From Prosthecobacter sp. (GTDB lineage Bacteria > Verrucomicrobiota > Verrucomicrobiia > Verrucomicrobiales > Verrucomicrobiaceae): a stretch of DNA of 64,000 nt. Both the position numbers and the translations under genes were made by a program. The DNA is taken from NCBI RefSeq assembly GCF_034366625.1, contig NZ_JAXMIH010000006.1:1116001-1180000 (forward strand), written 5' to 3'. Of the stretch, positions 35,401 through 64,000 are shown one piece after another; position 1 is the stretch's first letter, and every line of letters begins with the position of its first letter. The notes under the pieces were generated by a model, which saw nothing but the letters and a program-made list of their open reading frames with translations, did not search any database and was not told where the DNA came from.

Positions 35401-36780
35401 TCATGCAAAAATCCCGTTCACCACTTCGCCATACACATCGGTGAGGCGGAAGTCTCTTCCGGCGTAGCGATAGGTGAGCTTCAAGTGATCGATGCCGAGG
35501 AGGTGCAGGATGGTCGCATGCAGGTCGTGCATGTGGACTTTGTCCTTCACAGCGTAGTAGCCGAAGTCGTCCGTTTCGCCATACGCGACGCCGGATTTCA
35601 CGCCGCCACCGGCGAGCCACATGGTGAAGCCCTGCGGGTTGTGATCGCGACCGTTCGCACCTTGCACGATGGGCGTGCGGCCGAACTCGCCGCCCCAGAC
35701 GACGAGGGTGTCTTCCAGCATGCCGCGTTGCTTCAAATCGGCGAGCAGACCGGCGATGGGACGATCCACGGCGGCGGCGTTCTTGGTGTGACCTTTGATG
35801 AGATCGGAGTGCTGGTCCCAGACGTTCGGTGTGCTGACTTGAATGAAGCGCACGCCGGATTCGGCGAAGCGACGCGCGAGCAGGCACTGGCGACCGTAGT
35901 TGTCCGTTACCGCATCGCCGATGCCGTAGAGCGCCTTGATGTGCGCAGGCTCGTTTTCGATGTCCATGACGCCGGGGGCCTCGCGCTGCATGCGGAAGGC
36001 GAGTTCCATGCTCTGGATCATGCCCTCGACCGGTGCGTGGCGTGTGCGCTCGAAGTGCTCGCGGTTCATCGCTTGGAGCAAATCGAGCTTGCGCATCTGA
36101 CCGGCGGAATCGCCAGTGGCGTCGAGAAAGCGGAAGGTGGCGTCTTTGCCCAACTTGCCTGCACGACCGACGGTGGTGCCTTGATGTGCGGCGGGCAGGA
36201 AAGCGCTGCCGTAATTACGCGGGCCACCATGCGTGGCGGGCGGACTGATGCTCACAAAGGCGGGCAGGTCGGCGTTCTCGCTGCCGAGACCGTAGCTGAT
36301 CCATGAGCCGATGGACGGACGCACAAAATTGTCCGCGCCCGTGTGGATCATGCACACCGCCTGGCCGTGCGACTGGCCTTTGCTCTGCATGGAACGGATG
36401 ACACACAAGTCATCGAGTCGCTTCGACACTTCGGGGAACAAATCGCTACCCCACAGGCCCGCTTCGCCATGCTGCGAAAACTTCCACGGCGAGCCGAGCA
36501 GCTTCGCCTGGCTCGTGGACGATGGATCGAGGTTCTTCGCCGGTGCAAAGGGCAGCTTCTTGCCGTCCATCTGCTGGAGCTTCGGTTTGTAATCAAACGT
36601 GTCCACCTGCGACGGTCCACCGTGCATGAAGAGGAAGATGACGCGCTTCGCCCGCGGCGTGTGATGCAGTCCACGCGGCAAACTGGCCGCTGTGGCGATG
36701 CCATTGAGCGCGAGCGCCCCGAATCCGCAGGCAGCGGTCTGCAAGGCATGACGGCGGGTGATAAGTGGAGACGTGTTCAT
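35401..36780 (-). CDS. DUF1501 protein with twin-arginine-like leader
   Basis: The start at 36780 gives a Tat-like leader ([20 protein letters not shown]) and 459 residues. It shows DUF1501 features: [42 protein letters not shown], and [14 protein letters not shown] followed by [20 protein letters not shown]1501 belongs to the alkaline-phosphatase/sulfatase-like superfamily and always seems to pair with DUF1549/DUF1553 proteins in Planctomycetota and Verrucomicrobiota; here it follows one after 4 bases. The biochemical role of the pair is not established. A second DUF1501 gene is at 56069. Confidence 0.88.
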
Positions 36781-36784
36781 GGCA

Positions 36785-39580
36785 TCATTCGAGAAACAAA
36801 AACTCCGTGGAGGCGAGCAGCACATGGGCGAGATCGGCGAGGGCTTTTTCGCGATCATCGTTGGCGGTGTTGATGAAATCATTCGCACGCTTGGCCGCCG
36901 TGGCGCTCGGCGCACGTCCGAGAATGGCCTCATGTAGCCATGTCACTGGGTCAGCCTGGGCGTAGGCTTGTTGGGCGAGTGTGGCACCCTGTTTTTGCAG
37001 GAAGGGGCTGTTGAGCAGATACAGCGCTTGCGTGGGCACGGTGGTGAGCGGGCGGTCGCCGGAAACCATCTCGGGATTGGCGACGTCGAAGATTTCCAGC
37101 TCGGGGGCGAGGTTGTTGCGCGCGACGGGGAGGTAGATGCTGCGGCGCAGTTCTTTGTCGAACTTCATCGGCTTGTCGAGATCCTCGCCGTAAGTGAGCG
37201 CGGTGGCGGCGGCTTGTTCGAGTTTGAGTTCGCCGGTGAGGAAGAGCAGGCTGTCGCGAATTTCCTCGGCGGTGAGGCGACGATATGACCGCCTGCCGAA
37301 CAAACGATTTTCGGGATCGGCGATGGTGCGCGGTGATTTGGCCTCAGCGGCGAGCTGATAGGTGCGGCTGAGCACCATCTCGCGGATCAATGATTTGAAG
37401 GAGCCGCCGCTGGCGCGGAACTTCGCGGCGAGGTGATCGAGCAGCGCGGGATGCGTGGGCTTCTCGCCCTGCACGCCGAAGTTATCGACGGTGCCGACGA
37501 TGCCACGCCCGAAAAGCTGCGCCCAGAGGCGGTTCACGATCACGCGGTCGAGCAGCGCATTCTCCGTGCTCGTCATCCAGGCGGCGAGTTGCAGGCGACC
37601 GCTCGATCCGGCGGGGATCTTCGGCGCTTTGCCGCTGTGCAGCACGGTGGGGAAGCTGCGTGGCACTTTGGGGCCGAGTTGATTCACCTCGCCACGCACG
37701 CGCAGATGGATGTCGCCTGCGTCACGCGCATCGCGCGGGGCCATGGCCAGCTCGGCGTCTTTGAGCGCGTTCACCTGCTTGTCGAGCTCTTTGGTAAGCG
37801 CGGCGTTGTCCATCAGGAGGAGCGGATCGCCCGTGCTGCTGCCGTTCGCCATCGCCAGTGCGGTGGACTCGCGCTCGATGTCTTTTTCGGAGATGAACTG
37901 CACGGCATCGACGATCACATAATCCTTCGTGCCTTGCGTGCCGACGATGACATTCACGCGCCCGCCTTTCTCGAAATGAAACCGGCCGATGGGCTCGAAC
38001 AGGCCGCCGATGCTGGGCTTCTTCGTCTGGTCAAAGATGATCTCATGCACGCCGTCGAAGGCTTCGACGGTGATGGGCACGCGCTTGTCGCAGTTGCCCT
38101 TCGCCGGATAGGCGATTCGCACCTCGTAGATGCCGGTCTCGGGCAAGGCACCGCGAAACACGGCCTTCTTCGCGCCTCGGTCCTGCTTGTCGTTGTGAAT
38201 GTAGAAGTCGCCGAAGCGCTTCGCAGACAGGCTCGACTGCTTCCAGTCGCCGACGAGTTCCGCGCTGGCCTCATCATAAATCACGCCCGCGAGCGGCAGT
38301 TTCGTCAGTGCTTTTTTGCCCGCGACGGTTTCCATGAAATCGCGCTCCACTTTGAGCCGCATCGCGAGTTCGAGCCGCGCCACTTTCTGCTTCAGCTCGC
38401 CAAACGCTGGTTCCGGCTGCGGCAGTGCCTGCTCCACCCAGCTTGCCACATTCACGCAGCCGTTCCGCGTGCCCATGACGACCTCCGTGGAGCGGAAGAA
38501 GCCCGCGAGCGCGTAGTAGTCCTGCTGGCTGAAGGGATCGAACTTGTGATCGTGGCAGCGCGCACAACCAACGGTGAGGCCGAGAAACGCGCGGCCAATC
38601 GTGTCGATCTGCTCGTCCACCGTGTCGAGGTGCAGCTTCTCCTTGTCGCGCTCCGTGAGCATCTTCGGCCCCAGCGCGAGGAAACTCGACGCGATCATCT
38701 GACTGCGCCGCTGCGCGGGAGTCTTTGCGGCCATAAGGTCACCCGCGATCTGCTCACGAATGAACTCGTAGAACGATTTGTCGTGGTTGAAGGCATCAAT
38801 GACGTAGTTTCTGTAACGCCACGCCTGATAAAAGGTGTAGTTGCGGTCACCGCCGTTCGAGTCCGAATAACGCGCGAGATCCAGCCAGTAGCGGCCCCAT
38901 TTTTCTCCGAACTGCGGGCTGCTGAGGAGCTTCTCGACATAGTCGGACAAGTCAGACGTGTCAGACTCGTCCGACGGCGGCAAGCCGGTGAGATCATAGC
39001 TGAGCCTGCGCATGAGCGTGACGCGGTCCGCATCGGCGGCAGGCGTGAGCTTCTTTGCCTCCAACTCTGCGAGGATGAACACATCCAGCTCTTTGCGCGG
39101 CCAGTCTTGCTGCTTCACGGCAGGCAGCGCGTTCTTTTGCAGCGGACGAAACGCCCAGCCTTGGCGTGCCGCCGCGAAATCAATCGTCTTCTTCGTGCTC
39201 GCCGCGGCCATCGACTCCACGCGCGGATCAGGCGCCCCCATCGTGATCCATTGCTCCAGCACGCGAATGTCTTCCGGCGGCAGCTTCGACTTCGGCGGCA
39301 TTTGCAGATCTTCGTCCTCGTAGCGCACGCTGTGCATGAGCAGGCTCTTCGCGGGCTTTCCGGGCACCAGCGCCGGCCCCGCATCGCCACCCTTCACCCA
39401 ACCTTCCTTCCGATCCAGCAGCAGCCCGCCTTTCACCTTTCCCTGCTGCGAGTGGCACTCATAACAATGCTTCACCAGTAAAGGCCGCACGCTGCTCTCA
39501 AAAAACGCCACGCCATCCGCCGCCGATGAATCAGCAGCCGCGAGGGCAAGGAGGAGCGAGATGGAAGAAAAGCGACGCAC
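36785..39580 (-). CDS. PSCyt1-DUF1549-DUF1553 planctomycete-type cytochrome protein
   Basis: No ATG fits the start. The GTG at 39580 gives signal peptide [20 protein letters not shown]; a TTG at 39595 is also open. The product has about 931 residues. Near the N-terminus is a single heme motif CYECH with [21 protein letters not shown] downstream, typical of the PSCyt1 domain. DUF1549 follows ([12 protein letters not shown]...[28 protein letters not shown]), then a carbohydrate-binding-like insert around residues 430-590 and DUF1553 ([33 protein letters not shown]). It is exported and probably acts together with the DUF1501 protein. Confidence 0.88.
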
Positions 39581-39661
39581 GGCTACACAAGACAAGAAAA
39601 GAGGACTCTTGGACAGGAAAAGATCGGGCTGGGTGCGCGGGTCTTTCGGTTGGCTGTTTCC

Positions 39662-52270: not shown

Positions 52271-52867
52271 TCAGTTGGCCTTCTTTGGTCTGCCGAGCAC
52301 GTCGTCCTTGGTCGTGAGGGCGACGGCGACAACTTGATCAATGAGTTCCTGGCTGATCTTGAGGTCCTTCAGTGTGTTGACGAGATTTTCCGCGATAGCA
52401 TTGAAGTGAACTTCGGTGAGGCCCATGCCTGCGTGGGCCTTGCGCATGTCTTTGCCAGTCCAAGGCAGTGGCCCACCAAACGCGGCGGAGAGAAACTCCT
52501 TCTGTTTCCGGCGCTGCTTGTCCATGCTCACGTCGTCGAAGAAGTGCTTCACGCGGTCATCGGCCAGCACTTTGACGTAGAAGGCTTCCACGGCGGCATC
52601 AATGGCACCTTTGCCGCCGAGCTTCTGATACAGGCTGTCTTCGCGGGCCTTCACCCACTTCGTTTTGCAGGCTTCTTTGGCGAAGGACCATTTTCTTCCT
52701 TCATACTCGGCGGTGATGGCGGGATCGACGGGCTTGCCAGTGACGGGGCAAACGGTGTTCGTGGCGGTTTCGGTAGCGACTGCGGCGGGATCGGCGGCAA
52801 GGGCGGCGTTCACGAGCAGCGTCATCACAGCGGTGATCGTGGCGAGGGAGGAGAGGATGAGTTTCAT
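52271..52867 (-). CDS. Exported YHS-domain / truncated hemoglobin fusion
   Basis: The start at 52867 gives signal peptide MKLILSSLATITAVMTLLVNAALA and 198 residues. Residues 38-68 form a YHS-like metal-binding unit (CPVTGKPVDP...YEGRKWSFAKEACKTKW). From residue 77 on it matches a group I truncated hemoglobin: SLYQKLGGKGAIDAAVEAFYVKV, VKHFFDDVSMDKQRRKQKEFLSAAFGG and MRKAHAGMGLTEVHF, where the His of KAH is the likely proximal heme ligand. Truncated hemoglobins bind O2 and NO. Export and the YHS fusion are unusual. It diverges from the NirK operon, and its promoter carries an NsrR-like palindrome. Confidence 0.85.
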   Translation of the reverse strand: MKLILSSLATITAVMTLLVNAALAADPAAVATETATNTVCPVTGKPVDPAITAEYEGRKWSFAKEACKTKWVKAREDSLYQKLGGKGAIDAAVEAFYVKVLADDRVKHFFDDVSMDKQRRKQKEFLSAAFGGPLPWTGKDMRKAHAGMGLTEVHFNAIAENLVNTLKDLKISQELIDQVVAVALTTKDDVLGRPKKAN

Positions 52868-52889
52868 GGTTGGATTGGAATGAGGCCGA

Positions 52890-52917
52890 TATATAAGATG
52901 CATGGGTGGTGCATCAA
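52890..52917 (-). promoter_or_regulatory. Promoter of YHS-globin gene overlapped by an NsrR-like operator
   Basis: On the minus strand, -35 TTGATG (52917-52912) and -10 TATATA (52895-52890) are 16 bases apart. A 23-base imperfect palindrome at 52895-52917 (AAGATGCAT-GGGTG-GTGCATCAA) covers the -35 box and spacer. This is where a repressor would block RNA polymerase. The half-site ATGCAT matches the NsrR consensus. Confidence 0.6.
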
Positions 52918-52988
52918 TGCGCCGATGCTGTGCTTGGCTGCGCCGATATTGCCGCAGGGAGTGGGGCAATGGACGCTTACAGGAGGCC

Positions 52989-53016
52989 AACATATGCATG
53001 GGTGGTTATGCGTTAA
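52989..53016 (+). promoter_or_regulatory. Second NsrR-like palindrome, for the plus-strand operon
   Basis: The sequence aacatatgcatgggtgg followed by ttatgcgttaa contains ATGCAT and ATGCGT half-sites. The 13-base core atgcatgggtggt is repeated exactly at 52898-52910 and 52994-53006. It lies about 85 bases upstream of the first operon gene. A further half-site (aaagttgcatcaag) follows at about 53015. Confidence 0.5.
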
Positions 53017-53100
53017 AGTTGCATCAAGAATACCACTTCAAGTCTTTTGGAGCTGCATTCATGACCAACCTGAACACAAAATCCATCTGGAGGCGCAGTC

Positions 53101-54471
53101 ATGTCATCAACGGTTTCATCTTCAACGGAAACCCCGATTTGTTATCACTTGGCAGCAGATCGACGGCTGCTTGGCGGTGAGTGTGGGGTGGTTGGTTGCA
53201 CGCATCGGGTGTCAGATCCCGCCGCCTTAAGCCCGGACATGCCGCCTTGCCTGATGGGACAGCAGCACCACACGGTGATCAGCATGGGAAAGGTGAAGAG
53301 GCTGGCGATCATGGTGACACCGCAGGGCGGCGGTGATTTCAAAGACGAGGCCTGGGAGGCGGTGTCCACGATTCGCGCGATCCTGCGGCAGCAGGACGAG
53401 CCGATGGCCGTGACGATGCAGACCGTGTTTGTGCGCGACCGTGAGGATGTGGCGACTGCCGAGCTGCTGTTCGAGGCGTGCTACGGCGAGAAGATGCCGC
53501 TGACGCTGTTCGTGGTGCAGCCGCCGTGTGACGGACGCGGGCTGGCAATTGAGGCCTGGGCGGTGAGCACGAGCACGGCAAAGGTGGAGTATCACAACGA
53601 GCATCTCGTCACGGTGAGCTACGATGACATGCGCTGGATTTACGCGTCGGGCGGCTCTCTGCATCGGGAGGGGCGCACCGCCTACGACCAGTCGCTGGAG
53701 GCTTTTGAAAGCATGAAGCGGGCGTTGGCGGAGGGCGGAGCCTCTTTTGAGGACGTGGTGCGCGTGTGGCTTTACCAAGGCTGCATTACCGAGGAGGTGG
53801 ATGGCGTGGAACGCTACCGGGAACTGAACCGTGCGCGGACGGACTTCTTCGCGAACATTGCCTTCGATCACCGGCCCATCCCGGTGGGGCACAATGGACA
53901 CGCGATTTACCCGGCGAGCACGGGCATCGGCACACGCTGTCACGGCCTGATCACGGCCTGCATGGCTTTGCAAACCGAGCGAAAAGACGTGGCGTTGCTG
54001 CCCCTGGAGAATCCGCTGCAAACCTCAGCTTTTGAATATCCCAAAGAGTATTCCGCGAAGAGTCCGAAGTTTGCGCGGGCGATGGCAGTGCGCATGGGCG
54101 ACCATGTGACGACATGGATCTCCGGCACGGCGAGCATCGTGAACGCAGAAACGGTTCACATCGGTGACATCGAGAAGCAGACCGAGCAAACCCTGACAAA
54201 CATCGAACGGTTGATCGACGCGCAGAATTTCGCGCGGCTCGGCTGGGCGGACGCCGGTGCGACCTTGGACGATCTGGCGAAGATCCACGTCTATGTGAAG
54301 CACGCGGAGGACTATGAGAAGTGCCGCGCTGTGTGCGAGCGACGGCTCGGGCGCATCCCCGCGATCTACGCGCAGGCGGATGTGTGCAGGCCTGATTTGC
54401 TCGTCGAAATCGAGGGCGTGGCGTTTTCGCATCTCCGCAAACCAGCCCACTTTCCTGGAGGTGATTTATGA
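53101..54471 (+). CDS. RidA/chorismatase-like protein
   Basis: The ATG at 53101 has a good ribosome-binding site (GGAGG at 53089-53093, 7-base spacing), which decides the start. The product has 456 residues without a signal peptide. It looks like two YjgF/RidA-type modules: YDQSLEAFESMKRALAEGGASFEDVVRVWLYQGCI in the middle and TLDDLAKIHVYVKHAEDYEKCRAVCERRLGRIPAIYAQADVCRPDLLVEIEGVA at the end. The latter is the classic RidA ending. The size and tandem layout are like chorismatases (FkbO/Hyg5 family), although the active-site residues cannot be confirmed here. First gene of the NirK operon; its stop overlaps the next start (ATGA). Confidence 0.75.
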   Translation: MSSTVSSSTETPICYHLAADRRLLGGECGVVGCTHRVSDPAALSPDMPPCLMGQQHHTVISMGKVKRLAIMVTPQGGGDFKDEAWEAVSTIRAILRQQDEPMAVTMQTVFVRDREDVATAELLFEACYGEKMPLTLFVVQPPCDGRGLAIEAWAVSTSTAKVEYHNEHLVTVSYDDMRWIYASGGSLHREGRTAYDQSLEAFESMKRALAEGGASFEDVVRVWLYQGCITEEVDGVERYRELNRARTDFFANIAFDHRPIPVGHNGHAIYPASTGIGTRCHGLITACMALQTERKDVALLPLENPLQTSAFEYPKEYSAKSPKFARAMAVRMGDHVTTWISGTASIVNAETVHIGDIEKQTEQTLTNIERLIDAQNFARLGWADAGATLDDLAKIHVYVKHAEDYEKCRAVCERRLGRIPAIYAQADVCRPDLLVEIEGVAFSHLRKPAHFPGGDL

Positions 54472-56048
54472 GCCTCTGCCGTCTGATCATCTTGCTGATG
54501 CCGCTGGCAGTTTCGCCTGCGGCGCATCCCGTGTTTGAAGCTGGCCCGGTTCAAGTGCGTGCCGGAGCCAAATTGAAATCAAGCGAGCGCGTGGACGAGC
54601 TGGTCTTTAGTCGCCAGGACGAACTGGGCATCAAACGCGCCCATCTCTGCTCGGACGCGGTGTTTGTGCGCCGCGCCTTTCTGGCCGTGATCGGCACGCT
54701 GCCGACGGAGGCGGAAGCGCGGGGCTTTGTGGCGGCCAAGGAACCGGACAAACGTGCGAAACTCATCGAGATCCTCATCCAACGGCCTGAGTTCACGGAT
54801 TTCTGGGCGATGAAGTGGGGTGATGTGCTGCGCGTGAAGGCGGAGTTTCCCATCAAGCTGTGGCCGAATGCGGTGCAGGCCTACCACCGCTGGATTCACA
54901 CGAGCGTGCGTGAAAACAAGCCTCTGCACATCTTCACGCGGCAACTATTGCTCGCGAACGGCAGCAACTTCCGCGAGGGCGAGGTGAATTTTTACCGCGC
55001 CATGCAGGATCGCAGCCCGCAGGGCGTCGCAGCGACGGTGGCGCTGAGCTTCATGGGTGAGCGTGCCGACAAATGGCCGAAAAAGAAGCTGGACGCGATG
55101 GCAGGCTTCTTTTCACAAGTGGCCTACAAATCGACGGCAGAATGGAAGGAGGAGATCGTCTATTTCGACCCTACGGCAGACAAGGACGGCATCACGAAGC
55201 ACGCCATATTCCCGGACGGCACGCCCGCCGGAATCAAGGCGGGCCTGGATGATCCACGGGTGGTTTTTTGCGAGTGGCTGCTGCGACCGGAGAACCCTTG
55301 GTTCTGCCGGAGTATGGCGAACCGCATCTGGTCGTGGCTGATGGGACGGGGCATCGTGCATGAGCCGGATGACTTCCGTGCGGACAATCCGCCATCGAAT
55401 CCGGCACTGCTGTTTTTTTTGGAAAAGGAGTTCGCTGCCTCGAAGTGCGACATGCGGCATCTCTTCCGCGTCATCCTCAATTCGCAGACCTTCCAGCTTT
55501 CCTCGATTCCGGCGCAGGATACGCCGGAAGCTGCGGCGCAGTTTGCGCATTACCCCATGCGGAGGCTGGAGGCGGAGGTGCTCGTGGATGCGCTGAATCA
55601 GATCACCGCGACGAAGGAAACCTACAGCAGCCCGATCCCCGAGCCGTTTACGTTCATACCGGAGAACGTACGCGGCATCGCTCTCGCGGACGGCAGCATC
55701 ACGAGCACGTTTTTGGAGCTGTTTGGCCGCCCGCCTCGCGACACCGGCTTTGAGTCAGAGCGCAATCTGAGCACGAGCCCCGCACAGCGGCTGCATCTGC
55801 TGAACTCCAGCCATGTGCTCGGTAAAATCAAAGCCTGCCCGCTGGTGGCGGATGCGGATGCCGGGGACCACGATCTGAACAAACTGGCCGACAAAATCTA
55901 TCTCACGCTACTCTCACGCACGCCCACGGCGGATGAGATCACCGCGTTGAAGGCGCACATGACCTCCAGCTACTCCAGCGGTCGTGAACTGGCCGCTGAC
56001 ATCGTCTGGGCGCTGATCAATCAGCCCGAATTCTATTTCAATCACTGA
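54468..56048 (+). CDS. DUF1549/DUF1553 protein without heme domain
   Basis: A 526-residue exported protein (MSLCRLIILLMPLAVSPAAH). DUF1549 lies at about residues 40-230 (FVRRAFLAVIGTLPTEAEARGFVAA...FWAMKWGDVLRVKAEFP) and DUF1553 at 285-520 (FCRSMANRIWSWLMGRGIVHEPDDFRADNPPSNPALLFFLEKEF... and ALINQPEFYFNH). Unlike the protein at 36785 it has no N-terminal CxxCH domain. A GGAGG ribosome-binding site sits at 54457-54461. The ATGA overlap with the previous gene shows translational coupling. The partner DUF1501 gene follows after 20 bases. Molecular function unknown. Confidence 0.88.
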   Translation: MSLCRLIILLMPLAVSPAAHPVFEAGPVQVRAGAKLKSSERVDELVFSRQDELGIKRAHLCSDAVFVRRAFLAVIGTLPTEAEARGFVAAKEPDKRAKLIEILIQRPEFTDFWAMKWGDVLRVKAEFPIKLWPNAVQAYHRWIHTSVRENKPLHIFTRQLLLANGSNFREGEVNFYRAMQDRSPQGVAATVALSFMGERADKWPKKKLDAMAGFFSQVAYKSTAEWKEEIVYFDPTADKDGITKHAIFPDGTPAGIKAGLDDPRVVFCEWLLRPENPWFCRSMANRIWSWLMGRGIVHEPDDFRADNPPSNPALLFFLEKEFAASKCDMRHLFRVILNSQTFQLSSIPAQDTPEAAAQFAHYPMRRLEAEVLVDALNQITATKETYSSPIPEPFTFIPENVRGIALADGSITSTFLELFGRPPRDTGFESERNLSTSPAQRLHLLNSSHVLGKIKACPLVADADAGDHDLNKLADKIYLTLLSRTPTADEITALKAHMTSSYSSGRELAADIVWALINQPEFYFNH

Positions 56049-56068
56049 ACCTCAACCCAACTCATCCC

Positions 56069-57460
56069 ATGAACTCCTTCCTGCCACCCAATGACATGGC
56101 ACGCGATGTCGTGCGGCTTGCCCAAAACATGGGCGGTATTCCCTTTTCCCGACGCGAGGCACTGCGGCGCTGCGTCTATGGCTCCGCCGGATTGCTGCTG
56201 CTGGAACCCATCAGCATTAGCGCCGCTCCGCGTGCTGCCGCCATCGCCACGGAGGGAAAGGCGAAGTCGGTGATTCAAATCTGGCTATGGGGCGGCCCAT
56301 GCCACATCGACACCTTTGATCCGAAACCTGAAGCGGGACGCGACTACACGGGTGCGCTGGATCAAACGCTCGAAACAAACGTCAGCGGCATGCGCATCGG
56401 CCAGTTGCTGCCGCAGCTCGCGAAGAACGCGGACAAATACTCGCTCATCCGCAGCATGACGCATGGAAACAACGGCCACGAAACTGCCTCCTACCTCGTG
56501 CAGACTGGCCGCGCCTCCGAGCGCGATGTGTTTCCTGGTCTGGGTGCCGTGGTGAGCTACTTCAAAGGCTATGACGCTGGTTATAAAGGACTGATCCCGC
56601 CCTATGTCGTGCTCACCCAGCCGCAGGGTCGCTTCTCCGAGGCTGGCTTTCTTGGCCCGCGCTACAAGCCTTTCGCCACCGGTGGCGATCCAGCGCGTCA
56701 GCCCTTTGCTGTCGAAGGAATCGTCACGCCAGGCATCACGGAGGAGCATCAAAAGGAGCGGCGCAAACTCCTTGGCAGCCTCAACACGCTCGGTGGTGCG
56801 CTGCCGGGGAATGCGACACTGAAAACGGTCGTGGATTCCGAACAGCAGGCGTACGAACTCATTTTGGGCGACGCCGGCAAGCTCTTTGATCTCAGTCAGG
56901 AGAAGGATGAAATGCGTGACCGCTATGGTCGCAGCACCTTCGGGCAGAGTTGCCTCATGGCACGGCGTCTCGTCGAAAAAGGCGTTCCCTTCATCACCAT
57001 CAACTACCAAGGCTGGGACACGCACAAGCAGCACTTCCAGATCATGAACCGCAAGCTGCCGGAGCTCGATCAGGGGCTCGCCGCGCTGCTGGCGGACCTT
57101 TCCGAGCACGGCCTGCTCGAAAGCACCATCGTCTGGTGTACGGGCGAGTTCGGCCGCACGCCGAAAGTGGCCAACGAGTCGCCGTGGAACGGTGGCAGGC
57201 ATCATTTTGGCAAAGTTTTCTCCAGCCTGCTCGCGGGCGGCGGATTCAAAGGTGGCCAGGTGCTCGGCAAGTCGAACGCCACGGGCGAGGAGGTCGCGGA
57301 TCGCCCTGTGTATCCGGCGGATGTCATCGGCAGCATCTACGGCCAGCTCGGCATTCCGGCGGATGCACCGCTGCCACATCCACAAGGCACGCCGACCTTT
57401 GTCGTGCCCGGCAAGGACGAGAAAGTGCCCATGGGCGGCCTGTTGAAGGAACTCATTTAA
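56069..57460 (+). CDS. DUF1501 protein (NirK operon)
   Basis: A 463-residue protein with a Tat-like leader (FSRREALRRCVYGSAGLLLLEP near residue 27) and DUF1501 motifs: VIQIWLWGGPCHIDTFDPKPEAG, RSMTHGNNGHETASYLVQTGRA, and TIVWCTGEFGRTPKVA with GRHHFGKVFSSLLAGGGFKGG. It pairs with the DUF1549/DUF1553 protein upstream. It is diverged from the other DUF1501 protein (35401), so it is not a recent duplicate. Confidence 0.88.
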   Translation: MNSFLPPNDMARDVVRLAQNMGGIPFSRREALRRCVYGSAGLLLLEPISISAAPRAAAIATEGKAKSVIQIWLWGGPCHIDTFDPKPEAGRDYTGALDQTLETNVSGMRIGQLLPQLAKNADKYSLIRSMTHGNNGHETASYLVQTGRASERDVFPGLGAVVSYFKGYDAGYKGLIPPYVVLTQPQGRFSEAGFLGPRYKPFATGGDPARQPFAVEGIVTPGITEEHQKERRKLLGSLNTLGGALPGNATLKTVVDSEQQAYELILGDAGKLFDLSQEKDEMRDRYGRSTFGQSCLMARRLVEKGVPFITINYQGWDTHKQHFQIMNRKLPELDQGLAALLADLSEHGLLESTIVWCTGEFGRTPKVANESPWNGGRHHFGKVFSSLLAGGGFKGGQVLGKSNATGEEVADRPVYPADVIGSIYGQLGIPADAPLPHPQGTPTFVVPGKDEKVPMGGLLKELI

Positions 57461-57476
57461 CCACTGCCACACCACC

Positions 57477-59459
57477 ATGAAACTCCGTGCCTCCTTGTTT
57501 TGTCTGTGCGGTCTCGCGGTGACGGTTCCGAGCCTGGCGCAGCCAGCGCCGCGCATTGGTTTTGTGTATCCAGCGGGCGGGCAGATCAGCACGACATTTG
57601 AGGTCATCGTCGGCGGACAGTATCTTGATGAAGAATCACAGGTCATTGTCTCCGGCGAGGGCATCACTGCCAAAGTGCTCGAACACGACAAAATACCACC
57701 CGCTCAAGTCGTGGATGATTACCGGGACCGCCTGCGTGAGGTGCAGGGCAAACTGCGCGAGCTGAAACGCGGCGACAAATTGCCCGCCGACCAGGTTTTG
57801 CCCACCATTCGTCGTCTGCTGCGCGAAGCCGACCTCACGGAGAAAAACCTGCGTCTCATGGCCGAGTATGACCGCCGTCGCAACGATCCCAAGCAGCAGC
57901 TCAACAACCAGATCGGTGAAAGCGTGCGTGTGAAAATCACTGTGGCCGAGGCAGCCACGCCCGGCATCCGTCATCTGCGCGTGCAGACACCTTCTGGTCT
58001 CAGCAATCCGATGCGCTTCGTCGTCGGCCAGCTTCCCGAGGTCCGTGAAGCAGAGCCGCCGCGCGAGTTTGATCTGGAGCACTATCGCGGCGGCATGGAT
58101 GCGGTGAAGCAGCAGCAGAAACTCGTCACCCCGCCCGTCAATCTGCCCGTCACACTCAATGGCCGCATCATGCCGGGAGAGGTGGATGAATTCACCTTCA
58201 AGGCGAGCAAAGGCCAGCAGGTCGTGCTCGCCATGCATGCTCGCAGTTTGATTCCCTATCTCGCGGATGCGGTGCCCGGCTGGTTTCAGTCCATCGTCTC
58301 GCTGCATAACGAAGAAGGCTATGAGGTGGCCTACTCCGACGGTTACCGCTTCGATCCAGACCCCGTGCTGTTCTACAAAATCCCGGCGGATGGTCTCTAC
58401 CGCATCCGCGTGCATGATTCGATCTACCGTGGGCGCGATGACTTCGTGTACCGCATCACCGTGGGTGAGCTGCCCTTCCTCACCGGCATTTCACCACTCG
58501 GCGCGACCGCAGGCGAAAACATCGAGATCACCTTCCAGGGCGGCAATCTCGGCACCGAGTTCAAGCAGAAGTATGAAGCGCCGCAGCAAGCCGGCATCAT
58601 CCTGCTGCATTCAACCGTCGGCGGCCTGCGCTCGAACTCGATTCCTTTTCACATCGACACCGTGCCGCAGGAGCGTGAACGCGAGCCCAATGCGAGCCTC
58701 GGTTCCGCGCAGGAGCTGAAACCGCCGGTCATCGTGAATGGACGCATTGAGGTGCCTGGCGACGCCGATTTCTACCGCGTCAAAGGCCGTGGAAATCACG
58801 AGATGATCTTCGAGATCTTTGCGCGTCGTCTGGGTTCGCCTGTGGATGCCAGTCTGACGGTCTTTGACAACGACGGCAACCAGATCGCCTTCAACGACGA
58901 TCATGAAGACCTCGCTTCCGGCCTCACCACGCACCATGCCGACTCACGCATCAGTGTGAAGCTCCCGGCGGATGGTCAGGCCTTCGTGCGCGTGACCGAC
59001 ACGCAGGGGCAGAGCGGCATCACCAACGCCTACCAGCTCAAAGTGCATGTCGCGGAGCCGTCATTCTCGCTGCGTGTCACGCCCTCCTCTCTCAATGCGA
59101 GACCGGGTGGCAGCGCGAAGCTCACCGTGCATGCGCTGCGCAGCGGCGGATTCACCGGCCCCATTACTTTGAAACTCAAAAACGCGCCTGCGGGATTCGA
59201 GGTCAAAAATGCTGTCGTGCCTGCCGACAAGGACTTGGCCGACATTGCCATCGCTGTCCCTTCCACTGGTGAAACCGAAAAGCCTGTCACCCTCATGCTG
59301 GAAGGCACCGCCGAGGACGGCGCCAGGACGATCACCGCCGACGCCGTGCCCGCCGAGGACATGATGCAGGCCTTTATCTACCGCCACTTGGTGCCAGTGG
59401 ACTCATTGCTTGTCGATGTGCGCACGCCACCGCCACCGCCGGTCAAACCCACGCCTTAA
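57477..59459 (+). CDS. Exported protein with PPC-type beta domains
   Basis: A 660-residue exported protein (signal MKLRASLFCLCGLAVTVPSLAQ). It has an N-terminal IPT-like strand set (GFVYPAGGQISTTFEVIVGGQYL), a helical insert (RDRLREVQGKLRELKRGDKLPADQ) and two pre-peptidase C-terminal (PPC) like domains: NGRIMPGEVDEFTFKASKGQQVVLAMHARSL and NGRIEVPGDADFYRVKGRGNHEMIFEIFARRL. An Ig-like C-terminal region follows. It ends in a Pro-rich tail (RTPPPPPVKPTP). It is probably a structural or binding partner of the DUF1501/DUF1549 proteins, 16 bases downstream of DUF1501. Confidence 0.82.
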   Translation: MKLRASLFCLCGLAVTVPSLAQPAPRIGFVYPAGGQISTTFEVIVGGQYLDEESQVIVSGEGITAKVLEHDKIPPAQVVDDYRDRLREVQGKLRELKRGDKLPADQVLPTIRRLLREADLTEKNLRLMAEYDRRRNDPKQQLNNQIGESVRVKITVAEAATPGIRHLRVQTPSGLSNPMRFVVGQLPEVREAEPPREFDLEHYRGGMDAVKQQQKLVTPPVNLPVTLNGRIMPGEVDEFTFKASKGQQVVLAMHARSLIPYLADAVPGWFQSIVSLHNEEGYEVAYSDGYRFDPDPVLFYKIPADGLYRIRVHDSIYRGRDDFVYRITVGELPFLTGISPLGATAGENIEITFQGGNLGTEFKQKYEAPQQAGIILLHSTVGGLRSNSIPFHIDTVPQEREREPNASLGSAQELKPPVIVNGRIEVPGDADFYRVKGRGNHEMIFEIFARRLGSPVDASLTVFDNDGNQIAFNDDHEDLASGLTTHHADSRISVKLPADGQAFVRVTDTQGQSGITNAYQLKVHVAEPSFSLRVTPSSLNARPGGSAKLTVHALRSGGFTGPITLKLKNAPAGFEVKNAVVPADKDLADIAIAVPSTGETEKPVTLMLEGTAEDGARTITADAVPAEDMMQAFIYRHLVPVDSLLVDVRTPPPPPVKPTP

Positions 59460-59467
59460 AACTCCCC

Positions 59468-60448
59468 ATGTCCAACCCCACCTGCACCGACTGGCTCTCC
59501 CACCGCTCTGAAATCCGCGTGCTCGACTGCACCATCCGCGACGGAGGATTGATGAACAATCATCAGTTCGAGGACCGCGTCGTGAAGGACGTTTATGAAG
59601 CCTGCGTCGCCGCAGGCATTGATTACATGGAGATCGGCTACCGGGCCTCGCGGAAGAACATCAAGCTCGGCGAGCACGGCTGCTGGAAATACTGCCAGGA
59701 GGAGGACATCCGTCGCATCGTCGGAGACAACGCCACCGCGCTAAAACTCTCCATCATGGCCGACGCGGGCAAATGCGACTACCGCGAGGACATTCCATCC
59801 AAGAAGGACAGCGTCATCGATCTCGTCCGCGTCGCTTGTTACGTCCATCAGGTGCCGATGGCGCTCGACATGCTCAAAGACGCCCGTGACAAAGGTTACG
59901 AAACCACCGTGAACCTCATGGCCGTCACCACCGTGGGCGACTGCGAGCTCGACGCCGCGCTCGAACTGCTCGCCACCTCCGAGGCGCAGGCCATTTACGT
60001 CGTGGACAGCTTTGGAGCGCTCTATCCGCAGCAAACACGCCGGCTCGTGCAGAAATATCTCCAGCACGCCAAAGCAGGCGGCATGGAGGTCGGCATCCAC
60101 GCCCACAACAACCTCCAGCTTGCCTACGCCAACACCATCGAGGCCATCGCCCTCGGCGCGAACTACCTTGACGCCACCATGGCCGGACTCGGGCGTGGCG
60201 CGGGCAACTGCCCCATGGAGCTGCTCCTCGGCCTGCTGCGCAATCCGCGCTACAAACTGCGCCCCGTGCTTGAATGCGTCGATCAGACCATCGAGCCGTT
60301 GCGCAAAGATCTCGGCTGGGGCTTCGACCTGCCCTACATGCTCACCGGCCTGTTCAACCAGCACCCCCGCGCCGCCATCAAATTCAACGCCGTCCCTGAA
60401 CGCGGGAATATTGGCGGCTTCTACGAAGCCATCTGCGACGCGCATTGA
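59468..60448 (+). CDS. DRE-TIM metallolyase (HMG-CoA-lyase/4-hydroxy-2-oxovalerate-aldolase-like)
   Basis: A 326-residue cytoplasmic protein. The DRE-TIM motif appears as RVLDCTIRDGGLMNNHQF (Asp metal ligand, Arg), and the second ligand pair as GIHAHNNLQLAYAN (H-x-H). Residues 190-275 contain the glycine-rich GLGRGAGNCPMELLL loop. These features fit an aldolase or lyase of the HOA/HMGL group. Carboxylate substrates are typical, but the exact substrate is unknown. It lies 8 bases after the PPC gene; its role beside NirK is not obvious. Confidence 0.85.
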   Translation: MSNPTCTDWLSHRSEIRVLDCTIRDGGLMNNHQFEDRVVKDVYEACVAAGIDYMEIGYRASRKNIKLGEHGCWKYCQEEDIRRIVGDNATALKLSIMADAGKCDYREDIPSKKDSVIDLVRVACYVHQVPMALDMLKDARDKGYETTVNLMAVTTVGDCELDAALELLATSEAQAIYVVDSFGALYPQQTRRLVQKYLQHAKAGGMEVGIHAHNNLQLAYANTIEAIALGANYLDATMAGLGRGAGNCPMELLLGLLRNPRYKLRPVLECVDQTIEPLRKDLGWGFDLPYMLTGLFNQHPRAAIKFNAVPERGNIGGFYEAICDAH

Positions 60449-60522
60449 GCCAGCAGCACCACCACACCCATCCCAATCCTTGCGCACTCGTCGCCAGCAT
60501 GGGCGGAGCATCCGCGAACCTA

Positions 60523-60545
60523 AAGTTGCATAGTCGATGCATGTT
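60523..60545 (+). promoter_or_regulatory. NsrR-like palindrome at the start of the globin gene
   Basis: A 23-base imperfect palindrome (AAGTTGCAT-AGTCG-ATGCATGTT) matches the operator in front of the YHS-globin gene in half-site and spacing. It overlaps the ATG at 60541, or lies just inside the gene if the ATG at 60499 is used. Confidence 0.45.
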
Positions 60546-61026
60546 TACAGCCAATCCAGACCCCAACCCCGACCTGTTAGGCCGCGCGGAGATCGAAACG
60601 CTGGTGAACACGTTCTACAAACGCGTCCGCAGTGACGAAGTGCTCGGCTTCATCTTCGACAAGGTCGCGCAGACGAACTGGGAGACCCATTTGCCGAAGA
60701 TGTATGCATTTTGGGAGACGGTGATGTTTCGCAGCGGTGGATTCACCGGCAATCCCATCGCTGCTCATGCAAAACTGGTGCCACTCACCAACATGGGCCG
60801 CCCGCAGTTCGACCGCTGGCTCATGCTCTTCCGCAGCACCGTGGATGATCTCTTCAGCGGCGAGCATGCCGAGCACATCAAGAACTGCGCCGAAGACATG
60901 GCGAACGTGATCCACGCCCGCATCAACCATGTGCCGGATGCCCGCTTCGATCCTGCCAACCTCACTCCCGAGCAGCGCGAGCGCTACGACCGCTACAAAT
61001 CCAAACCACAACCAGCCACACCATGA
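60541..61026 (+). CDS. Truncated hemoglobin, group III-like
   Basis: I start at the ATG at 60541 ([10 protein letters not shown]), giving 161 residues; an in-frame ATG at 60499 would add 14 residues. The sequence [59 protein letters not shown] fits group III truncated hemoglobins, with heme-pocket Phe/Tyr and His. The C-terminal helix ([15 protein letters not shown]) is Pro-rich. Such globins bind O2 or NO in the cytoplasm; next to NirK an NO-detoxifying role is likely. Its stop overlaps the start of nirK by four bases (ATGA). Confidence 0.85.
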
Positions 61027-62588
61027 AACCAACACTGCGCCTCATCCTGACGGCTCTCGCCATTGCCTTGCTCACGCAATGCGGTGACCGCGAACTCAGC
61101 CCGAACGAAAAAATGTCCCAGGAGACCTTCATCAAAGCGATGGACTCCTACAAAACGCCTGCGGCGACACCCGCCGCTCCAGTCGGGGGCGCTCTGACGA
61201 ATCTCACCGAGCAGCCGGACAAGCCTGTCTCCGGCGCGGAAGACGCGGTGCTCACTGATGCGCCGAATGTGCCGCCGCCCATCACGCGCGATCATCCCAC
61301 GAAAGTCACCATCAAGCTCGAAGTCGTCGAGCTGGTGAAACGTCTGGCGGATGGCGTGGACTACACGTTCTGGACCTTCGGCGGCAGTGTTCCTGGGAAG
61401 TTCATCCGCATTCGCCAGAACGATGAGGTCGAGTTCCATCTGATGAACCGTCCTGACAGCAAGATGCCGCACAACATCGACCTCCACTCCGTCACCGGTC
61501 CGGGCGGTGGTGCGGCGGCGTCCTTCACGGCGCCGGGCCATGTGTCCGTGTTCTCGTTCAAGGCGCTGAATCCGGGCATCTACGTTTATCACTGCGCCAC
61601 CGCGCCGGTGGGCATGCACATCGCCAACGGCATGTACGGCCTCATCCTCATCGAGCCCATCGGTGGGCTGCCCAAAGTGGACAAAGAGTTCTACGTCATG
61701 CAGTCCGAGTTCTACACGAAGGGGCGCAACGGTGAGGCCGGTCTGCAACCCTTCAACATGGACAAGGCGCTGGATGAGCGGCCGGACTACGTGGTGTTCA
61801 ACGGTTCTGTCGGCGCGCTGGCGGGCGACAACGCGGTGCATGCCAAGGTGGGCGAGCGTGTCAGGCTCTTTGTCGGCAACGGCGGCCCCAACTTGGTCTC
61901 TTCCTTTCACGTCATCGGTGAAATCTTCGACAACGTGTATCTCGAAGGTGGTGTGAAGCCCGCGCAGAATCATGTGCAGACCACCTTGGTTCCCGCCGGC
62001 GGCTCCGCCATGGTTGATTTCGGCCTGGAGGTGCCCGGCACCTACATCCTCGTCGATCACTCCATCTTCCGGGCCTTCAACAAAGGTGCCATTGGCATGC
62101 TCAAGGTCACGGGCCCTGAAAACAAGATCGCCTATTCCGGCAAGCAGGATGACCGCATTTACCAGTTCGAAGGCGGCGCTGCCCAGAACATCGTCCAGGC
62201 CTCCAAGCTGCAGACTCCGGCGGCGAACAAGCAGGAGCGCATCGACCGCGGCAAGCATATCTACACCTCCATCTGCATCGCCTGCCATCAGGCCGAAGGG
62301 CAGGGCATCCCGAAGGCCTTCCCGCCGGTGGCAAAGTCGGACTACCTCAACGCGGACCCCAAGCGTGCCATCGCGACGGTGCTGCATGGTCTTCAGGGCA
62401 AGGTCACGGTGAATGGCGAAACGTATGAAAGCATCATGCCACAGCTCGGCCTCAATGACGAGCAGGTCGCCAACGCGCTGACCTATGTTTATAACAACTG
62501 GGGCAACAACGGCACCGAGATTCATCCCGACATGGTCAAACAAGTCCGCGCCACCGTGCCGCCGGCTCCGGCAGCCAGCGGTGAATGA
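61023..62588 (+). CDS. nirK: Copper nitrite reductase with C-terminal cytochrome c (NirK)
   Basis: A 521-residue probable lipoprotein (Cys20 in LLTQCGD) with a Pro/Ala-rich linker to residue 90. Copper ligands are complete. Type 1: His150, Cys191, His199, Met204 ([24 protein letters not shown]). Type 2: His155, His190, His346 (ILVDHSIF). The catalytic Asp153 and His296 (SSFHVIGE) are also present. A cytochrome c domain follows from about residue 400, with the heme motif C418-IACH and the axial Met in IMPQLG. It reduces nitrite to NO in the periplasm, and the fused heme supplies electrons. Coupled by ATGA overlap to the globin gene upstream; the NirV-SCO gene follows after 7 bases. Confidence 0.95.
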
Positions 62589-62595
62589 TCCTATC

Positions 62596-63882
62596 ATGCG
62601 CTTGATCCTCACAACCATCCTGCTGGCAGCCGCCGCGCTGCCGGCCGCCGATCTCCCGCCGCCACCGGGCATGGTTTCCATTCCTGGTGGCAGCTACAAG
62701 CCGCTGTACGCCAAAAAGACGAAGCCGCGCAACGTGGAGTCGTTCTTCATCGACGTGGCACAGGTCACCAATGCGCAATTCCTCGACTTCGTGACGAAAC
62801 ACCCCGAGTGGCGGCGCTCGCAGGTCAAAGCCAAGCTCTCTGACAAAAACTACCTCTCCCACTGGGCCGGCGATCTCGATCTCGGCGATGACAAACTCCG
62901 TGATGCGCCTGTAGTCCACGTTTCGTGGTTCGCCGCGAAGGCCTACTGCGAATCGAAGGGCAAACGCATGCCCACGCAGGACGAATGGGAGTTCGTCGCA
63001 CGCGCGGACGCCACACGTCTCGATGCCAGCAGCGACCAGGCCTTCCTGCGTCAGTTGCTTGAGTGGTACTCCAAGCCAGCCTCCAGCGCGTTGGAGAACG
63101 TCCACAGCGCGTCAAAAAACATCCATGGCCTGCGTGGTCTTCACGGCCTCGTGTGGGAATGGGTGCATGACTTCAACTCCACCATGGTCGTCGGCGACTC
63201 ACGCGGCGATGGTTCGCTCGAACGCAAGCTCTTCTGTGGCGCAGGCTCGCTCCTCGCCGCCGATGTGAGCAACTACGCCGCCTTCATGCGCTATGCCTTC
63301 CGCTCCAGCCTCAAGGGCGACTACTGCGTCGGCAGCCTCGGCTTTCGCGGGGCGAAGTCGGTGAAGGAAGCACCTCCAGCGCCCGCCACGCCTCAATTCA
63401 CCACCATCTACGACCTGCCCGGCGAATGGCGCACGCAGGACGACCAACCGCTCAAGCTCGATCAACTGCGCGGCAAGCCCCGCATCATCACCATGGGCTT
63501 CACCGCCTGCAAATTCGCCTGTCCACGCATCATCGACGACATGAAACGCATCGAGCGGGAACTAGGAACCGATGCGGACAAAGTGGGCCTCGTCTTCTTC
63601 TCCTTCGACACCGCCACCGACAAGCCCGCGAAGATGAAAGCCACCCAGATCGAGCATCAGCTCGATCCCAGCCGCTGGACCTTCGCCATCTCCACTGATG
63701 AAACCATCCGCCAGCTCGCCGTGGCGCTGAACTTCAAATTTCAGTCCATCGAAGGCCTCTACGCCCACTCCAATCTCATTGCCGTCCTCGATGCCGAGGG
63801 AAACATCGTCCACCGCGAGGAAGCGCTCGGTGCTGACATCGAGCCAACGGTGAAGGCCGTGCGCAAACTGCTCCAACCATGA
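62596..63882 (+). CDS. NirV-like SUMF1 domain fused to an SCO copper chaperone
   Basis: The start at 62596 gives signal peptide MRLILTTILLAAAALPAAD and 428 residues; the longer frame upstream is inside nirK. Residues 25-255 are a SUMF1/FGE-sulfatase domain (PPGMVSIPGGSYKPLY, GKRMPTQDEWEFVARAD, HGLVWEWVHDF, CVGSLGFRGAK), as in NirV proteins encoded next to nirK. The catalytic FGE Cys pair is not seen. Residues 280-428 form an SCO1/SenC domain with the copper motif C305-KFAC309-P and the His of YAHSN. SCO domains deliver copper. The fusion suggests assembly of the NirK copper centres. Its stop overlaps the next start (ATGA). Confidence 0.9.
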   Translation: MRLILTTILLAAAALPAADLPPPPGMVSIPGGSYKPLYAKKTKPRNVESFFIDVAQVTNAQFLDFVTKHPEWRRSQVKAKLSDKNYLSHWAGDLDLGDDKLRDAPVVHVSWFAAKAYCESKGKRMPTQDEWEFVARADATRLDASSDQAFLRQLLEWYSKPASSALENVHSASKNIHGLRGLHGLVWEWVHDFNSTMVVGDSRGDGSLERKLFCGAGSLLAADVSNYAAFMRYAFRSSLKGDYCVGSLGFRGAKSVKEAPPAPATPQFTTIYDLPGEWRTQDDQPLKLDQLRGKPRIITMGFTACKFACPRIIDDMKRIERELGTDADKVGLVFFSFDTATDKPAKMKATQIEHQLDPSRWTFAISTDETIRQLAVALNFKFQSIEGLYAHSNLIAVLDAEGNIVHREEALGADIEPTVKAVRKLLQP

Positions 63883-64000
63883 CCATGCGCTCATTTCATC
63901 TTCTGGCCGCCACGGCGGCGCTCGCCACGTCCGCGCATGCTCAAACAGCCCCGCATCCGCTCTCCTACGCCGATGGTCGCGTCGTGTTTGGCATCGAAGA
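63879..64000 (+). CDS. Exported protein, partial (C-terminus outside window)
   Basis: It starts at the ATG overlapping the NirV-SCO stop by four bases; an in-frame ATG at 63885 is an alternative. About 40 residues are visible: a signal peptide (MRSFHLLAATAALATSAHAQ) and the beginning of a mature protein (TAPHPLSYADGRVVFGIE). The operon continues past the window edge. Too short to name a family. Confidence 0.6.
   Translation, partial: MTMRSFHLLAATAALATSAHAQTAPHPLSYADGRVVFGIE

Follow-up and report, generated by a model that had tools for sequence, protein, structure and literature searches.

A stretch of 64,000 nucleotides from Prosthecobacter sp. (contig NZ_JAXMIH010000006.1, positions 1,116,001-1,180,000 of the forward strand, assembly GCF_034366625.1; hereafter the window) contains a nitrate-to-nitric oxide (NO) locus, with Nap-type nitrate reductase genes in its extension, and this locus holds a separate cassette of five genes, g1-g5. 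The core of the cassette (g1, g2, g3 and g4, with g5 often next) is a unit of conserved order that is present or absent at one same site and encodes intact chorismatase motifs. Its link to denitrification is very probable. Our favoured explanation, which in our judgment may equally well hold or fail, is that of an NO-inducible accessory cassette yielding a chorismate-derived phenolic together with exported partners. The families of the individual parts are already known; what is new is the gene set, its link to denitrification, and a PSCyt2 protein that lacks CxxCH. Literature searches surfaced no paper describing this gene combination.

The cassette lies on the plus strand. Its first gene, g1 (53101-54471), encodes a chorismatase-like protein of the FkbO/Hyg5 type (PF21168 and PF01042) with an extra N-terminal part. 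It is followed by g2 (54468-56048), which encodes a DUF1549/DUF1553 (PSCyt2/PSD1) protein (PF07583 and PF07587); by g3 (56069-57460), a DUF1501 protein (PF07394); by g4 (57477-59459), a PPC-domain protein with a signal-like N-terminus and a PF04151 score of 28.9 bits, slightly above the 25.9 cut-off; and by g5 (59468-60448), an HMGL-like (DRE-TIM) aldolase-like protein (PF00682). Across 31 g1 loci with a g1 identity of at least 59% (L161 and L096 being left out as duplicates of L105 and L166), the order g1-g2-g3-g4 is complete and colinear in 24 and contradicted in none; one gene is split in two loci (L173, L175), and five are cut by the sequence end. A conserved neighbourhood in related genomes, which had been set beforehand as a test of the original prediction, is thus present. 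Strong g1 matches occur in 16 of 68 genomes of the family and in 32 of 386 genomes of the order (three weak matches of 37% identity were dropped from the former table, and G086, at 47%, was kept in the latter), while g5 is found at 82-88% identity in 10 more genomes of the genus, or 11 of the 68 family genomes when the window's own genome (G000; 6.65 Mb, 30 contigs) is counted. A phylum-wide draw yielded g1 in 5 of 387 genomes besides G000, at 41-51% identity and with g2 not seen in the stretch examined. On plasmids, 17 records matched g1, none covering 80% of it and all below 60% identity. As a marker for the cassette g5 was rejected: of 486 loci 80 were kept, and close cassette genes are present at 12 of these.

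The surroundings of the cassette vary. In G013 and G027 the order is globin, g1-g5, GYD, Rrf2, norCBQD, norE, trHb (truncated haemoglobin), nirK; in G049 it is g1-g4, trHb, g5, Rrf2, norCBQD; in the G024 group nap is inserted between g4 and g5; and a G025 contig has, of the cassette, g4 and g5 only. A divergent globin gene neighbours g1 in L024, L025 and L033, and also in L187 and L188. The pair of a GYD-domain gene and an Rrf2 regulator (L024:10085-10977) is recurrent in cassette loci. Second copies of the cassette are accompanied by a flavin enzyme of the tryptophan-halogenase family (L027:15393-16631, L179:6725-7960, and near 15024 in L190), which is CmlS/QhpG-like yet scores below those cut-offs. 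In distant Verrucomicrobiota, an FHA domain is fused to a chorismatase-like protein (L184:9148-10851 and L186:4133-5815), the L186 fusion lying beside a gene that we take, from its sequence, to be ThiS-like; near another distant chorismatase homologue, L181:3598-6219 encodes a protein with a hydrazine-synthase-alpha middle domain (PF18582).

The link to denitrification comes from gene neighbourhoods and from co-occurrence. The loci adjoin nirK, norCBQD, nap or nosZ in varied arrangements, and a core denitrification or NO gene lies within 15 kb, inside the stretches examined, at 16 of the 31 g1 loci (14 from the neighbourhood tally, plus the nos genes of L162 and L166). By Fisher's test, without correction for phylogeny, norB is enriched among the g1-carrying genomes of the order (16/32 versus 6/354 of those lacking g1; 4e-15), as are nosZ (6/32 versus 6/354; 1e-4), nirK in the 68 family genomes (11/16 versus 5/52; 8e-6) and nirK in family f3 (8/15 versus 1/24; 8e-4), where the 24 comparison genomes were hand-picked, five of them for carrying norB or nosZ. 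In the 68 family genomes norB is present in 11/16 with g1 and 0/52 without it. (A weak NirK match in L169 was dropped; a similar protein in L167 consists of DUF7133 and cytochrome c.) In six f3 genomes that carry g1 and lack nirK, norB and nosZ, NnrS is found in all six, versus 7 of 19 chosen genomes without g1 (one below cut-off), an excess that is no more than suggestive. The proposed connection of the run to nitrite and NO metabolism is therefore borne out by co-occurrence with nirK, norCBQD, nosZ and, in some loci, nap; the expected association with nirK is real, but not with nirK alone, since these other genes share in it. Because synteny is conserved and the genes co-occur, the gene set is more than chance.

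A site without the cassette shows where its limits lie. In G052 a divergent globin/trHb region matches window positions 52800-52933 at 97% and 60521-60600 at 80%; the left homology extends to 52933 and the right begins at 60521, and the interval 52934-60520 has no counterpart. Similar cassette-free globin-nirK sites, less alike than that of G052, are present in G022 and G043, and G062 and G001 have nirK and no g1. An 11-bp direct repeat (TAAAGTTGCAT) at 53014-53024 and 60521-60531 lies near both cassette ends, at operator boxes. The cassette is thus present or absent at one same site, which may reflect either insertion in G000 or loss elsewhere, given that g1 adjoins the divergent globin in further genomes as well.

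The closest solved relatives of g1 are Hyg5 and FkbO, residues 160-441 of g1 aligning with Hyg5 72-339. Hyg5 Glu-334, Gly-173, Gly-240 and Cys-327 (the Gly and Cys numbers being carried over from Nat-hyg5 with an offset of 9) correspond to Glu436, Gly275, Gly342 and Cys429 of g1, and all 39 g1 rows share these four residues without exception, two genomes being entered twice. In Hyg5, Glu-334 is catalytic and the Gly/Gly/Cys set (Nat-hyg5 164/231/318) is typical of the CH-II class, which forms 3-hydroxybenzoate (PMC7170507). In the same alignment the second and third of the Gly/Gly/Cys positions are Ala in FkbO. From these residues, g1 is probably a true chorismatase, with a predicted conversion of chorismate to 3-hydroxybenzoate. 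It resembles the chorismatases FkbO, Hyg5 and XanB2 in its catalytic Glu and CH-II Gly/Gly/Cys set; it differs from them in having about 90 extra N-terminal residues, in missing the TIGR04444 cut-off, and in being linked to exported proteins of the type found in Planctomycetes-Verrucomicrobia-Chlamydiae (PVC) bacteria and to denitrification genes.

Control by an NsrR-type repressor is suggested by three boxes in the window that have the 11-1-11 operator geometry. Box 1 (AAGATGCATGGGTGGTGCATCAA, 52895-52917), with the geometry TGCAT N6 TGCAT, has a counterpart in cassette-free loci; box 2 (AAGTTGCATCAAGAATACCACTT, 53016-53038) lies immediately 5' of g1 (E. coli matrix, p 0.010); and box 3 (AAGTTGCATAGTCGATGCATGTT, 60523-60545) lies 5' of the trHb gene g6 (60541-61026, plus strand; PF01152) and overlaps its start. 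In E. coli CFT073 a 23-base 11-1-11 inverted repeat has been described for NsrR, whose targets include the globin gene hmp (PMC5320621). The matrix was made from eleven E. coli NsrR sites published there, some of which are predicted only. At p<=0.02 it finds a box upstream of g1 in 9 of 27 cases, of trHb in 5/14 and of the divergent globin in 4/8, versus 1/32 for g2, 0/34 for g4 and 0/11 for g5, the rows including relatives and duplicates (the window with L009, L037 with L038). The selected loci, 730 kb in all, contain the exact pattern TGCATN6TGCAT in nine rows, representing seven distinct boxes from four genomes, and every one lies within 400 nt 5' of g1 or a globin gene. An Rrf2 gene is present in L024 and its relatives. 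The matrix test is supportive, not proof, and NsrR-type control of the cassette is rather likely. The arrangement is like the NsrR regulon of E. coli in its 23-base repeat and globin target; it differs in that the target set here includes the chorismatase cassette.

These boxes also bear on the transcripts. Because box 3 extends into the start codon, the trHb gene may in fact start elsewhere or its mRNA may lack a leader, and because the 92-base gap before g6 (60449-60540) carries an operator-like box, the run probably comprises two transcription units. The single operon proposed by the original prediction is not supported, given that G052, G022 and G043 lack the cassette at this site and that the globin-nirK unit has a separate box. 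A scan for Sigma-70 promoters gave one versus 2.6 expected, and terminators numbered 12 versus 9.8, with none in the 92-base gap. An FNR-type box (TTGATNNNNATCAA) was considered and rejected, with 21 matches in the window versus 17.4 expected and none in either promoter region. The divergent gene (52271-52867, minus strand), whose start was set at an MKLIL signal-like peptide, encodes an exported globin (PF01152, 66.4 bits); of its former designation, YHS-globin, the globin part stands, and the YHS part is a label only, Pfam having returned PF01152 alone.

Among the partners of g1, g2 exceeds the Pfam gathering score for DUF1549 (85.8 versus 29.8 bits). CxxCH is found in none of 40 cassette rows of g2 (several partial, with second copies included and two genomes entered twice) and in all four of the other rows aligned, which makes a role for g2 in carrying c-type haem unlikely; the earlier idea of a periplasmic process with nitrite as acceptor is accordingly not supported. 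For the fold of g2, Foldseek gave no match at E<=0.001 and VIA a best Z of 4.6, and a profile search of solved sequences gave no match. The N-terminus of g3 appears twin-arginine-like, judged by what we take to be that motif. With a model of g3 (predicted local distance difference test score only 52), ENPP6 and PafA lead the fold search (top five Z 13.2-12.3, root-mean-square deviation 3.8-4.9, 217-248 residues aligned), which points, with low confidence, to an alkaline-phosphatase/sulfatase superfamily fold. g5 resembles DmpG-like aldolases; it scores 129.4 bits versus the 286 of TIGR03217 (4-hydroxy-2-oxovalerate aldolase), and what we presume to be the DmpG-type His is Leu in g5. Another pairing of Planctomycete-specific cytochrome (PSCyt2-PSD1) and DUF1501 genes lies at 35401-39595 of the window. 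PSCyt2 genes usually adjoin a family of unknown genes (PMC5615132), and our guess is that this family is DUF1501. The g2 and g3 proteins have the same Pfam domains as such pairs; the cassette differs from them in the absence of CxxCH and in its fixed chorismatase and PPC partners.

A number of results weigh against the favoured explanation. The TIGR04444 score of g1 is 174.1 bits versus a cut-off of 325, and for this reason the protein is named chorismatase-like and not placed in that subfamily. A significant box is missing before 18 of 27 g1 genes; 0/8 norC, 1/16 nirK and 0/7 nnrS upstream regions pass, and g3 (4/34) and norQ (4/8, these inside coding sequence) pass too. Among the nine g1 matches that of L171 looks poor, and those of L037 and L038 are identical in sequence. 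The exact pattern alone is also reached in six out of 100 shuffled versions of the window, and the longer box pattern was devised once the boxes had been seen. No cognate regulator was identified, an NsrR gene having been sought in G000 no further than the window and L009. Of the remaining g1 loci, 5/31 have accessory genes only and 10/31 none; the co-occurrence statistics ignore phylogeny; and nirK, norB and nosZ are all missing in 8 of the 32 g1-carrying genomes, of which G026 and G031 have nap adjoining g5 and in the other six none was found. In addition, 68 of the 80 g5 relatives kept have no close cassette gene.

Some of these points would be expected if a generic PSCyt2/DUF1501-type cassette merely shared variable regions with denitrification genes and had no function in common with them. 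DUF1553 genes are common (82 matches in G000, some being halves of one gene), the cassette comes and goes at its site, and both the 15 of 31 g1 loci without a nearby core denitrification gene and the g1 upstream regions without a significant box are in keeping with such hitch-hiking. However, nirK, norCBQD, nap and nosZ repeatedly accompany the cassette, in differing arrangements, operator-like boxes are common to cassette and globins in part of the loci, and the chorismatase residues are intact in every g1 row, so that we consider hitch-hiking unlikely. A detoxification role, in which g1 would be a RidA-like hydrolase shielding enzymes under nitrosative stress, draws on the PF01042 domain at g1 residues 338-441 and on the NsrR-like boxes. 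It is highly unlikely, given the invariant chorismatase residues, the standing of Hyg5 and FkbO as the best solved relatives, and the position of g1 Tyr423 opposite an Arg of the solved Rid protein 2dyy that we take to be the RidA catalytic residue; of the RidA/chorismatase-like designation first given to g1, the chorismatase side is thus retained and the RidA side, along with RidA-type detoxification, is set aside. Equally improbable is the supply of quinone or general hydroxybenzoate for anaerobic respiration, with g2-g4 unrelated: plain precursor supply has no need of the strict g1-g2-g3-g4 linkage, and no quinone-synthesis protein scored above cut-off among the scanned neighbours.

Under the favoured explanation of an NO-inducible phenolic cassette, g1 would split chorismate in the cytoplasm into 3-hydroxybenzoate and pyruvate. 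NO would release an Rrf2/NsrR-type repressor, and g1-g5, the divergent globin and the globin-nirK unit would then be switched on together as separate transcripts. g2, g3 and g4 would be exported; g3, with its putative alkaline-phosphatase/sulfatase fold, may modify or carry the aromatic product or a derivative, g2 and g4 may serve as binding or scaffold parts, and g5 may attach or remove a pyruvate-derived unit. Conceivably the product protects or supplies periplasmic denitrification enzymes as a metal ligand, redox mediator or scavenger, and a service of the phenolic to denitrification is put forward only tentatively. A more elaborate version, which we think quite unlikely, is a new NO-inducible pathway in which g1 (with g5) would provide a chorismate-derived aromatic, to be attached in the cytoplasm to a g3 protein exported by twin-arginine translocation; g2 and g4 would join it in a complex, in the periplasm or at the cell surface, that would serve Nir, Nor and Nos as redox mediator, metal ligand or NO/nitrite scavenger, and the second copies with the CmlS-like enzyme would make a further-modified version.

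The rest of the locus is a run of plus-strand genes, beginning at 53101, that is as the original prediction had it: the genes are present at their coordinates, there are three 4-base ATGA overlaps (54468-54471, 61023-61026 and 63879-63882) and short gaps of 20 (56049-56068), 16 (57461-57476), 8 (59460-59467) and 7 (62589-62595) bases besides the 92 before g6, and the named families (DUF1549/DUF1553, DUF1501, PPC, aldolase, globin and NirK) are matched by Pfam or TIGR profiles. The copper nitrite reductase NirK, g7 (61023-62588), scores 360.9 bits versus the 296.3 cut-off of TIGR02376, and its residues 74-517 match 3ziy (637 bits), with a cytochrome c at the C-terminus. It is an ordinary member of the three-domain enzymes typified by 3ziy, presumably that of Ralstonia pickettii, with no notable difference. 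Adjoining nirK, in relatives too, is g8 (62596-63882; scanned as 62485-63882, with the start set at an MRLIL signal-like peptide), in which an FGE-type domain is fused to SCO1 (PF03781 and PF02630); we assume its FGE domain to be akin to the NirV proteins beside nirK. The start of g9, an alginate-export-type barrel, occupies 63879-64000, and the gene extends to L009:5180 (L009 coordinates being window coordinates minus 60000). Past the window the run continues for a further 11.6 kb, with gaps of at most 588 bases between called genes: the barrel is followed by a NapA-like protein, a NapB-matching cytochrome, a second multihaem cytochrome, a 4Fe-4S ferredoxin, NrfD, NnrS, DUF2314 and a TIGR04053 radical-SAM protein that ends at L009:15652. 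The label NapA-like is used because both NapA cut-offs are missed (TIGR01706, 861.9 versus 930.55; PRK13532, 897.2 versus 904). The whole G000 genome gave no match to a Verrucomicrobial cNOR subunit and none to NosZ; of its three COX1-family matches one is a cbb3 CcoN-CcoO fusion, and either of the other two might conceivably be a qNOR. Judged from its gene content, the organism may take nitrate reduction no further than NO, which globins and NnrS would then handle.

In PVC bacteria the PSCyt/PSD proteins have undergone wide expansion. The set described here is a specialised one that lacks CxxCH, and it can be connected with a predicted reaction (chorismate cleavage), a predicted signal (NO) and a process (denitrification); as a consequence the role of PSCyt/PSD-type proteins becomes testable. 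The finding suggests that NO and nitrous oxide (N2O) turnover in Verrucomicrobia has an unrecognised component, and gives a hint that denitrification in a group of these bacteria is assisted by an undescribed system.

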